NCBI RefSeq assembly: GCF_001570585.1
Contig: NZ_BBXF01000001.1
Span: 62,001-126,000 of the forward strand
Length of the DNA: 64,000 nucleotides
DNA from: Herbidospora daliensis
GTDB lineage: Bacteria > Actinomycetota > Actinomycetes > Streptosporangiales > Streptosporangiaceae
Direction of reading: 5' to 3'
In this document: positions 4,937 to 9,042 of the stretch, in pieces
Position numbering within the stretch: position 1 is the stretch's first letter
How the letters are laid out: every line of letters begins with the position of its first letter
Notes under the pieces: generated by a model
The model's input: only the letters and a program-made list of their open reading frames with translations
The model's database searches: none
Told to the model about the DNA's origin: nothing
Program-made: the position numbers and the translations under genes

Positions 4937-4976
4937 GATGCCAGACTGTGACAGCCATCGCGTTCGGGGAGGGCAA

Positions 4977-6482
4977 GTGAAACGACAGTTGATCGCCGGC
5001 GTCGCCGTGGCCGCGACCGCTTCCGCGGGGGCCTACCTGCTCGTCCCGGAGGCGTCCAGCCCCGGATTGGAGCGTGCCAGCTACGTGACCACCGCGGCCA
5101 AGAAGGACGTCTGCCCGGCGGCCAAGCGCCAGATGCGCGGCATGTGGATCGCGACGACGCAGAACATCGACTGGCCGTCGAAGGCCGGCCTGTCGCCCGC
5201 CACGCAGCGGGCCGAATACGTCAAGATGCTCGACACCGCCGCCGCGCGCGGCATCAACGCGGTGTTCGTGCAGGTCAGACCGGCTTCCGACGCCATCTAC
5301 AAGTCGTCGCTGGAGCCCTGGTCGCAGTACCTGACCGGCAAGGCGGGCAAGAACCCGGGCTGGGACCCGCTGCCGTTCCTGATCAGCGAGGCCCACAAGC
5401 GGGGCATGGAGTTCCACGCCTGGTTCAACCCCTACCGGGCCGCCTACAGCGACAACGTCGCGGCGCTGCCCGCGAACCACCCGGCCCGGCAGCACCCCGG
5501 CTGGGTGGTCAAGCACGAGGGGCGCCTCTACTACAACCCGGGGCTTCCGTCGGTCCGTGACCACGTCACCAAGGTGATCATGGACGTGGTCAACCGCTAC
5601 GACATCGACGGCGTGCACTTCGACGACTACTTCTACCCCTATCCGGGCCAGGGCACGAAGTTCAACGACACCGCCGCCTACGACAAGTACGGCGCGGGCA
5701 AGTCGCTGGCCAACTGGCGGCGGGCCAACGTCAACCAGCTCGTGGCGCAGGTCGACAAGGCCGTCCACCGGGCCAAGCCCTACCTGAAGTTCGGCATCAG
5801 CCCGTTCGGGATCTGGCGCAACAAGAGCAACGACCCGACCGGCTCCAAGACCACCGGCATGTCGGCGTACGACGCGATCTACGCCGACCCGAAGGCGTGG
5901 ATCAAGGCGGGCACGGTCGACTACCTGACCCCGCAGCTCTACTGGAACCGGGGCTTCGCGGCGGCCGACTACGACGTGCTGGCGCCCTGGTGGGCGAACG
6001 CGGTCAAGGGCAGCGGCGTCGACCTCTACATCGGCCAGGGGCTCTACCAGATCGGCACCGGCGGGGCCTGGAACCGGCCCAACGAGATCCCGTCGCACCT
6101 GGCGGTCAACAAGCGCTATCCCGAGATCGAGGGCGACGTCTACTTCAGCGCCAAGCAGGTCGTGCAGAACCCGCTGAAGGTGATGACCCGGATCAAGGAG
6201 CAGTACTACCAGCGCCCGGCGCTGCTGCCGCTGATCAAGGGCCTGCCCACCAAGCCGCTCGGCCCGGTCAAGAACCTGCGCAACGCGGGCGGCACGCTGA
6301 CCTGGACGGGCGTGCCGGGGGCCCGCGCCTACGCGGTCTACCGGGGCACGGGCAACTCGTGCGAGCTGGTCGCGGTCACGACGCGCTCCTCGTTCCAGAC
6401 CCGGGCCAACGGCGCCTACCAGGTCACCTCGCTCGACCGCCTCTACAACGAGAGCACCCCTGTAGCAGCACGCGTGGGGTGA
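4977..6482 (+). CDS. Secreted glycoside-hydrolase-like protein, GHL10 (DUF187) family
   Basis: 501-residue exported protein. The first ~30 residues (KRQLIAGVAVAATASAGAYL) look like a Sec signal. The DUF187/GHL10 TIM-barrel domain starts at MRGMWIATTQNIDWP and includes FVQVRPASDAIY, FHAWFNPYRA and YDIDGVHFDDYFYPYP, the hallmark strand ends of this family. A short FN3-like domain forms the C-terminus (from about residue 425). The GTG start follows GGGGAGGG at 4966-4973; upstream codons have no site. Family members act on or bind cell-surface glycans, but the substrate is not predictable here. Confidence 0.85.
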   Translation: MKRQLIAGVAVAATASAGAYLLVPEASSPGLERASYVTTAAKKDVCPAAKRQMRGMWIATTQNIDWPSKAGLSPATQRAEYVKMLDTAAARGINAVFVQVRPASDAIYKSSLEPWSQYLTGKAGKNPGWDPLPFLISEAHKRGMEFHAWFNPYRAAYSDNVAALPANHPARQHPGWVVKHEGRLYYNPGLPSVRDHVTKVIMDVVNRYDIDGVHFDDYFYPYPGQGTKFNDTAAYDKYGAGKSLANWRRANVNQLVAQVDKAVHRAKPYLKFGISPFGIWRNKSNDPTGSKTTGMSAYDAIYADPKAWIKAGTVDYLTPQLYWNRGFAAADYDVLAPWWANAVKGSGVDLYIGQGLYQIGTGGAWNRPNEIPSHLAVNKRYPEIEGDVYFSAKQVVQNPLKVMTRIKEQYYQRPALLPLIKGLPTKPLGPVKNLRNAGGTLTWTGVPGARAYAVYRGTGNSCELVAVTTRSSFQTRANGAYQVTSLDRLYNESTPVAARVG

Positions 6483-6485
6483 CAA

Positions 6486-6522
6486 GCGAGTCGCGGACGG
6501 CCGAAGGCCGGCCGTGACTCGC
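6486..6522 (+). terminator. Hairpin terminator candidate after GHL10 gene
   Basis: GCGAGTC (6486-6492) pairs with GACTCGC (6516-6522), with an inner ACGGCC/GGCCGT stem and a four-base bulge. It starts four bases after the stop codon at 6482. No long T-tract follows. Confidence 0.6.
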
Positions 6523-6570
6523 GCCCGGAATCTGCCTCCATAGAAGTTGCAAGTTTTTGCTCAGTTATTG

Positions 6571-6658
6571 CGTCCGATGATCCGATCCTGTCAGGATGAG
6601 GGCACCCCCCTCACCGGGTAGCGTCCGCCCGGTGCCTGCCAGAAAGGATCATCGGACG
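6571..6658 (+). promoter_or_regulatory. Structured 5' leader that can mask the ribosome-binding site and start codon
   Basis: CGTCCGATGATCC (6571-6583) is the exact reverse complement of GGATCATCGGACG (6646-6658). The second arm covers part of the Shine-Dalgarno AGAAAGGA (6641-6648) and the first base of the GTG start (6658). The 62 bases between arms hold a second perfect stem, GGCACC (6601-6606) with GGTGCC (6631-6636), plus a small ATCC/GGAT hairpin (6585-6597). The arrangement is a closing helix with internal hairpins, as in cis-acting translational switches. It matches no riboswitch class I recognise. Confidence 0.6.
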
Positions 6659-9042
6659 TGGCTGTCTCGCGCCGTAGTTTCCTCGCCTCGGCCATCTCGG
6701 CGTCCGCCATCGCGGCGACCTCGACCCATCTGACCAGCGGCCCGGCGTACGCGGCCAGTCCACCCGGCGACGTGGTGGGCAAGATCACCGTCGGCTACCA
6801 GGGCTGGTTCGCCTGCCGGGGCGACGGCTCGCCGATCGACCGGTGGTGGCACTGGAGCGGCCACGACAACACCGTCCCGCCCTCGCCGTCGAACACCACG
6901 ATCGTGTCGTGGCCGGACAACCGCGACTACACGCGCACCTACCCGACGCTCTACCAGAACCTGAACAACGGCCAGACGGCCAACCTGTTCTCCTCCTGGG
7001 ACCAGCAGACGGTCGACACCCACTTCCGCTGGATGCGCGACAACGGCTGCGACACCGCCGCCCTGCAGCGCTTCAACCCCAACGGCGCCGAGGGCCCGAT
7101 CCGCGACGGCATGACCGCCAAGGTGCGCCAGGCCGCCGAGGCCTTCGGCCGCAAGTTCTACATCATGTACGACGTCACCGACTGGCTCGCCTTCCAATCG
7201 GAGATCAAGACCGACTGGACGAGCAAGATGTCGGCGTACACCCAGAGCCCGATGTACGCCCGCCAGAACGGCAAGCCCGTCGTGTGCATCTGGGGTTTCG
7301 GCTTCAGCGAGCCCAGCCGGCCGTTCACCCCGGCGCCCTGCCTCGAAGTGATCAACTGGTTCAAGGCGCAGGGCTGCTACGTCATCGGCGGCGTGCCCAC
7401 CTGGTGGCGGCAGGGCATCAACGACTCGCGTCCCGGCTTCGAGAACGTCTACCGGGCGTTCAACATGATCTCCCCGTGGATGGTCGGCCGGGCCCGGACC
7501 ATCGCGGAGCTCGACAGCTACTACGCCAACGCCACCCTCGGCGACGTCGCCGAGTGCAACGCCCTGGGCATCGACTACCAGCCGTGCGTGATGCCCGGCG
7601 ATCTCCAGTCGCGGGCCCGCGTCCACGGCGACTTCATGTGGCGCATGTTCTACAACACCATCCGCGCGGGCTCCCACGGCATCTACATCTCGATGTTCGA
7701 CGAGTACAACGAGGGCAACCAGATCGCCAAGACCGCCGAGACGCAGGCGTGGGTGCCCGCGGGTTCGGGCATCCTGGCGCTCGACGAGGACGGCACGTTC
7801 TGCTCCTCCGACTACTACCTGCGCATCACCGCCGACGGCGGGCGCATGCTGAAGGGCCAGATCGCGCTGACGGCGACCCGGCCGACCCAGCCGACGACCG
7901 GCGGCCCGCCGCCCGGCGGCGACACGAACCTCGCGCTGAACAAGGCGGCCAGCGCCAGCAGCACCAACAACGGCTTCGTGCCCGCCAACGCCGTCGACGG
8001 GAACGCCGCCACCTACTGGGAGAGCTCCGGCGCGCTGCCGCAGTGGTTCCAGGTCGACCTGGGAGCCGCGTCGGTCCTGGGCCGGGCCGTGCTCAAGCTG
8101 CCGCCGAACGCGGCGTGGGGCTCACGGGTGCAGACGCTCACCCTCGCGGTGAGCGCCAACGGCAGCTCGTGGACGACGGTCACCGGCCCGATCGGCGTCA
8201 CCTTCAACGCCGCGACCGGCAACCAGGCGACCATCACCATCCCGGCGCTGAGCGCCCGCTACGTGCGGGTGACGATCAGCGCCAACACCGGCTGGCCCGC
8301 CGCGCAGTTGTCGGAGCTGGAGGTCTACGCGACCGGCGCGGTGGAGAACACGCCCCCCACCGCCCCGGGCAACCTGACCGTCACCGGCAAGACCACCACC
8401 AGCGTGTCGCTCTCGTGGACGGCCTCGACCGACGACGTCGCGGTCACCGGCTACCAGGTGCTGCAGAACGGCGAGCCCGTGGCCTCGCCTACCGGGCTGA
8501 CCCACACGGTCACCGGCCTGGCCCCGAACACCGCCTACACGTTCACGGTCCGGGCCCGCGACGGGCAGAACTCCCTGTCGCAGCCCTCGAACGCGGTGAC
8601 CGCGACGACCGACCCGGCCGCGAACGTGAACCTGGCGGCCGGGAAGGCGACCGCCGAGAGCGGCCACGTGCAGAACTACGGGTCGGGCAACATCGTCGAC
8701 GGCAACGCGGGCTCCTACTGGGAGTCGCCGAACAACGCGTTCCCGCAGTGGGTCCAGGTCGACCTCGGGGCGGCCACGTCGGTCTCCCGGGTGGTGCTGA
8801 AGCTGCCGCCGGCCTCGGCGTGGCAGACCCGGACCCAGACCATCGAGGTCCAGGGCAGCGTCAACGGCTCGACCTTCTCGACGCTGTCGGCGGCGTCGGG
8901 GCGCACCTTCAACCCCGCCACCGGCAACACCGTGACGGTCTCCTTCACCGCCTCGTCGCAGCGGTACGTGCGGCTGCGGTTCACCGGGAACACCGGCTGG
9001 CCGGCCGGGCAACTCTCGGAACTGGAGGTCTACGCCTCCTGA
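6658..9042 (+). CDS. Tat-exported GH71/GH99-like protein with two CBM32 domains and FN3
   Basis: 794-residue exported protein. The N-terminus has a Tat-type signal ([13 protein letters not shown], cleavage after AYA near 30). Residues ~38-415 form a TIM-barrel domain resembling GH71/GH99-like endo-acting glycosidases ([38 protein letters not shown]). A linker leads to an F5/8 type C (CBM32) domain at ~420-560, an FN3 domain at ~565-655 and a second CBM32 to the end. The two CBM32 copies share [32 protein letters not shown] and the ending [14 protein letters not shown], so they are an internal duplication. The GTG start is read from AGAAAGGA. The protein probably binds and cuts surface glycan; substrate unknown. 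Confidence 0.82.

Follow-up and report, generated by a model that had tools for sequence, protein, structure and literature searches.

Two co-directional genes on the forward strand of the window (the whole 64-kb stretch of DNA analysed) frame the element described here, and all window features given below are on that strand. The upstream gene (4938–6482) encodes a protein with a GHL10 domain and is a possible source of read-through transcription. The downstream gene (6658–9042) begins with GTG and, on the evidence of Pfam and a structure model, encodes a GH99-like glycosidase that looks secreted and carries F5/8-type C domains and an fn3 domain. The N terminus of this protein is Tat-like. Pfam gave no match for a catalytic domain, and phmmer against PDB sequences gave only matches with E values of 0.32–0.34. 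By contrast, the 32 best PDB matches of the structure model (mean pLDDT 65) are GH99 entries or human endo-alpha-mannosidase MANEA, which we take to be GH99; the best of these has an E value of 6.6e-12. By the fold of the model, the enzyme is GH99-like, in line with its description as 'GH71/GH99-like' when the sequence was read without database searches. GH71 as the enzyme family gave way to GH99-like on these matches, among which a GH71 enzyme stands at rank 33. The nearest named relatives are Herbidospora species, a genus that the abstract of PMC4599437 places in the family Streptosporangiaceae.

Ahead of the glycosidase gene lies a perfect inverted repeat of 13 bases. Its left arm, CGTCCGATGATCC (6571–6583; the anti-RBS arm), is the exact reverse complement of its right arm, GGATCATCGGACG (6646–6658). 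The right arm covers the translation start site, running from the GGA of the Shine-Dalgarno sequence AAAGGA (6643–6648) to the G of the GTG at 6658. Both the repeat and its position over the start site had been pointed out in an earlier, sequence-only reading of this DNA, and both are real. That reading also held that such pairing was unlikely to arise by chance. Taken alone, a 13-bp repeat is only mildly unusual: the window contains two perfect inverted repeats of at least 13 bases with a loop of 30–100, whereas 20 order-2 Markov sequences average 0.45, and eight repeats of at least 13 bases occur in 864 kb of the same genome (the window together with 40 stretches of 20 kb), or about one per 108 kb. 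What counts is the position of the repeat together with its conservation.

Conservation and folding of the repeat

The repeat is kept at the GH99-like gene in all seven Herbidospora genomes examined. The arms are letter-identical in the window and in five other Herbidospora species (L069, L073, L074, L075 and L077). The seventh genome (G006) was found by its promoter, and its gene is split by contig ends; it carries the only arm change among the seven species, a C-to-T substitution in the last base of the left arm (ATCT for ATCC). The right arm of G006 is unchanged, so the pair becomes a U–G wobble and pairing is retained. The right arm is therefore identical in seven of seven species and the left arm in six of seven, and the Shine-Dalgarno sequence is invariant in all seven. 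The exact core repeat (11-bp arms, 45–75 bases apart) was found in 6 of 341 family genomes, all of them Herbidospora, with one copy per genome that is always located at the GH99-like gene.

Conservation extends over the whole leader: 92% of the 90 columns between 6568 and 6657 are invariant in the window and the five orthologues. In the same six species, invariance is 65% over 400 third codon positions and 14% over 6500–6559 (gaps counted), and it is also high in the first 30 third codon positions (25 of 30, 83%). The covariation that was sought did not appear: none of the 33 predicted pairs shows a two-sided change in six species, among which divergence is low. With no compensatory change, the conservation fits RNA pairing and DNA function alike.

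RNA spanning 6560–6680 folds at −57.8 kcal/mol (z −4.40), a value equalled by none of 200 shuffles. The two inner stems that had been included in the fold proposed earlier are not supported as parts of the element, as GGCACC/GGTGCC is present in the window only (one of seven species) and ATCC/GGAT is intact in four of seven. The inner pairings favoured by the energy model are GAGGG/CCCUC and ACCGGGU/GCCCGGU. The second of these forms a hairpin (6613–6633) that lies in the predicted primary leader and is invariant in all seven Herbidospora species. Its loop holds GCGTCCG (6621–6627), which is able to pair with CGGACGU over the start, as it does in the structure predicted for the primary transcript of G006. 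The primary RNA may therefore be under some control by folding through GCGTCCG. The statement that no known riboswitch class has this layout agrees with Rfam, which gave no match at the gathering threshold for the window or for L251, and none up to an E value of 10 for 6480–6760.

A promoter block around the left arm

A promoter-like block, TTGC[G/A] – 18 bp – TGn-CANNAT, is located upstream of 45 of 80 homologues (the best 80 of 450 relatives found in named genomes). The search pattern, TTGC[GA]-N17..20-C[AT]NNAT[GA], was devised after reading the upstream regions; in mononucleotide shuffles it is found at a mean of 0.24 per 80. The spacer between TTGCNN and CANNAT is 18 bp in all 45 matches, although four lengths were allowed, and TG stands one base before the hexamer in all 45 (28 of 28 after dereplication), although the pattern did not require it. 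TG at this distance from a −10 hexamer is the mark of an extended −10. The block is common to two families, Streptosporangiaceae and Micromonosporaceae, to which we assign the 45 block-bearing homologues from their genus names. It is absent in the other 35 homologues, 14 of which are from Streptomyces and others from the same two families. The block-less genera within these families include Asanoa, Dactylosporangium, Catellatospora and Nonomuraea; the block is common, not universal. The start codon follows 36–77 bases past the block in 41 of the 45 cases and 103–161 bases past it in four; in 11 of the 80 homologues the match begins after residue 1, and the start, placed by back-counting, is approximate.

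A stricter form of the block, TTGCR-N16-TGNCANGATG, occurs at three places in the genome of the window species and at none in the backward control. The three places are the GH99-like gene, its paralogue and the region upstream of one unrelated gene. The unrelated gene, seen in four Herbidospora genomes (L181, L237, L245 and L246), has its ATG 7 nt after CAAGAT and is apparently leaderless. GTAACC/GGTTAC palindromes, which we take to be TetR-operator-like, flank the same extended −10 promoter at this gene. In Herbidospora, Acrocarpospora and Sphaerisporangium homologues (L070–L072, L076, L078–L080, L094 and L119), GTCCGATGTTACGCGGCGATAACA or a near variant forms a TGTTA-N8-TAACA palindrome just past the −10 block; it presumably resembles a LacI-type operator.

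In the window, the predicted −35 element TTGCGT occupies 6568–6573, its last three bases being the first three of the left arm, and the predicted extended −10 (6589–6597) consists of TGn (6589–6591) and CAGGAT (6592–6597). Because of the position of the block and the location of the ATG 7 nt after CAAGAT in the unrelated gene, transcription is predicted to start 7 nt after CAGGAT, near 6604 (±2). A C at the first −10 position is atypical, and a scan of 6300–6760 for consensus promoters and terminators found none; the scanner did not report the proposed promoter either. The left arm sits in the spacer between the predicted −35 and −10 elements and ends 20 nt ahead of the predicted start, so the assumption that both arms are present in the normal mRNA is probably wrong. 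A start downstream of 6583, which the sequence-only reading had named as counting against it, is thus what the promoter block predicts.

Further conserved sequence lies upstream of the −35. TTGC is directly repeated at 6547, 6557 and 6568 (6547–6572), upstream of and into the −35 element, and 21 bp upstream of TTGC three places are nearly invariant among the 28 dereplicated promoters (T in every one, then T and C in 27 each). A likely explanation is an activator site overlapping the −35. The fuller shared block reads TT(T/G)C at −21, TTGC[G/A], 18 bp and CTGnCAnnATG (6547–6598 in the window). Direct repeats of TTGC about 11 bp apart are seen in some species; in L075 there are four copies with 11-bp spacing.

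Primary and read-through RNA

The same upstream C terminus precedes the repeat in the other six Herbidospora genomes, and the neighbour is co-directional in all seven. The distance from the upstream stop codon to the left arm is 24 bases in solisilvae, 26 in G006, 38 in cretacea, 41 in galbida and 45 in mongoliensis, and these five gaps fold at only −2.2 to −9.5 kcal/mol. When the final 30 bases of the upstream gene are included, the values are −26.5 kcal/mol in mongoliensis and −24.8 kcal/mol in cretacea, and termination between the genes could occur in these two species. In the window species and sakaeratensis, the gaps are 88 and 85 bases long and contain hairpins of −32.4 and −27.3 kcal/mol, respectively. 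The strong hairpin of the window (6486–6522; −32.4 kcal/mol over a 48-base stretch, z −4.79) is a copy of a dispersed repeat and is confined to the window species and H. sakaeratensis, being absent in the other five. The repeat in question is a palindromic sequence of about 55 bp (6483–6538, core AAGCGAGACGCGGACGGCCGAAGGCCGGCCGTGGCTCGCGCC..GAATCTGCCTC) that is dispersed in this genome and looks REP-like from its sequence. Scoring of 40 out of 202 candidates gave 43 matches, in which one place or more appears on both strands; 41 of them cover the palindromic part of the query, and the best seven copies (L002–L008) are 89–94% identical. A co-directional neighbour was considered as a distinguishing mark of the Herbidospora genes and rejected, as 53 of the 80 homologues, Herbidospora included, have one by a crude ORF call.

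RNA beginning at 6604 has no unusual fold (z 0.13), and RNA beginning at 6560, with both arms, has a z of −4.08. In the seven species, the computed cost of opening the RBS is 25.9–34.1 kcal/mol in read-through RNA, modelled from 175 bases upstream, versus 10.7–15.7 kcal/mol in the predicted primary transcript. For RNA from −175 in 75 other homologues, the cost is 15.9 ± 4.0 kcal/mol (maximum 24.5), and in the 40 of these that have the block the cost in primary RNA is 13.9 ± 2.6 kcal/mol. Set against the other homologues, it is thus only the read-through form that the stem makes stand out. The predicted primary transcript also has pairing at the start site, where the probability that the start codon is open is 0.01–0.08.

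An RBS duplex test over the 80 homologues gave z < −3 in seven, namely five Herbidospora orthologues, L098 and L106. When the 45 block-bearing homologues were scanned for their longest inverted repeat, those standing out in addition to the five Herbidospora orthologues were L106 and L110, each with 9 bp and 0 of 40 shuffles, L098 with 8 bp (0 of 40) and L103 with 8 bp (1 of 40). In L106 and L110 (Actinoplanes/Paractinoplanes), the 9-bp repeat GTCGATCCG/CGGATCGAC begins near the predicted start site and ends shortly before the Shine-Dalgarno sequence. Complementarity between the promoter spacer and the RBS in 25 other dereplicated homologues has a mean p of 0.30, and 14 pairs of control segments gave 0.36–0.62. 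This complementarity is at most slightly high, and we do not count it as support in the form of weaker arms in other homologues.

We tentatively propose, with a probability of roughly 0.4, that the repeat is an anti-RBS arm embedded in the promoter that silences read-through mRNA. The gene's own promoter (TTGCGT, 18 bp, TGT and CAGGAT) would start RNA near 6604, yielding an mRNA that lacks the left arm and can be translated. RNA entering from the co-directional upstream gene would carry both arms, and a stem of 14 pairs over the Shine-Dalgarno sequence and start codon would leave it untranslated. The enzyme would in this way be kept under its own specific promoter, although its neighbour ends 24–88 bases upstream of the arm. 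We infer the start site, the occurrence of read-through and the block to translation by the stem in the cell. The same 13 bases would act as promoter DNA for local initiation and as a translational silencer for polymerase arriving from the neighbour, and the cell would tell how a message was started from the sequence of the message alone. That an ordinary chromosomal gene should use its promoter spacer as an anti-RBS arm seems to us possible, at somewhat less than even odds. Silencing of read-through is weakened as an explanation because two species already have a strong hairpin between the genes, because co-directional neighbours are common and yet the stem is found only in Herbidospora orthologues, and because the evidence comes from one genus with no compensatory changes.

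Low divergence offers another account, in which the pair as such is functionless and derives from an old inverted duplication whose halves have been kept by promoter and RBS constraints. We judge this unlikely but well worth considering: all sequences come from one genus, the whole leader (92% of 90 columns) is conserved and not the arms alone, invariance among the first 30 third codon positions is 83%, and perfect repeats of at least 13 bases arise about once per 108 kb in this genome. Yet arm positions outside the promoter and RBS elements are invariant in six of the six species first studied, against only 14% for 6500–6559, and the arm spans the distance from the Shine-Dalgarno sequence to the start. 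The arms might also be two inverted DNA sites for a repressor, one in the promoter spacer and one at the start codon, with centres 75 bp (about seven turns) apart, perhaps looping the DNA, and the RNA stem would be a by-product. The left arm is placed where a repressor would block RNA polymerase, and the conservation of the arms suits DNA and RNA readings equally. Operator control of this type of gene is plausible because Herbidospora paralogues carry TGTTACGCGGCGATAACA, an operator-like palindrome overlapping a GTCCGATG, just past the same −10 block. However, neither arm is more than a weak palindrome, and the 11 additional genomic sites that differ by one mismatch are found in crudely called ORFs (eight) or between apparently convergent ORFs (three), with none at a promoter as a regulon site would be. 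A repressor is accordingly an improbable explanation for the pair. With up to two mismatches, the arm has 286 genome sites versus 54 in the backward control, an excess that is unexplained.

The sequence-only reading had favoured a translational switch or thermosensor in the leader, for which the main transcript would have to begin upstream of 6571; the fold is the one observation here that favours such a start. The start-hiding pairing that it described stands, being strong and kept in seven species; the interpretation as an ordinary leader switch or thermosensor does not fit a promoter block lying within the element, with its 18-bp spacing and extended −10 conserved over two families. The fold is very stable and conserved in the species folded, and the loop GCGTCCG provides a second start-pairing sequence, so that two-state folding is possible. 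Even so, 14 pairs make a very stable stem for a thermosensor, the inner stems lack conservation, Rfam gives no match and no consensus promoter is found in 6300–6760 (by a scan that also misses the proposed one), and we consider a switch of this kind very improbable.

If silencing of read-through is the function of the repeat, the insulation known from transposable elements would also serve closely packed chromosomal genes, and further cases could be sought in any compact genome by screening for RBS-matching arms upstream of the transcription start site. Leader hairpins predicted from sequence may be partly outside the mRNA, and the conserved promoter block of this GH99-like family is a testable regulatory target.

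Comparison with known systems

Like RNA thermometers and translational riboswitches, the element has a stem over the Shine-Dalgarno sequence and start; unlike them, it has no Rfam match, and its left arm is probably absent from transcripts of the gene's own promoter. In E. coli, when gal or lac is read from upstream promoters, the RBS is hidden by sequence located upstream of the normal start. A literature search gave no case of the gal/lac type evident by title among the matches listed. In type I toxin mRNAs, according to PMC7858274, the message is kept translationally inert by an anti-SD sequence lying upstream. There the anti-SD sequence lies within the primary transcript, whereas the primary transcript of the GH99-like gene should, by prediction, be without the arm.

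The closest parallels come from insertion sequences, for which the principle of protection from read-through by RBS occlusion is already known. In IS10/Tn10, transcripts contain the upstream arm only when they come from external promoters. IS200, as described in PMC3196728, has two stem-loops, one that ends impinging transcripts and one that occludes the RBS. No mobile-element end was encountered at the repeat described here, which sits between the GHL10-domain gene and the GH99-like gene. It differs from both elements in serving a chromosomal secreted glycosidase, with no transposase, in having its arm between the predicted −35 and −10, and in being known here from sequence. It shares with them an inverted repeat in which the distal arm covers the ribosome-binding site and, by computation, an RBS that costs far more energy to open in read-through RNA than in the gene's own RNA.
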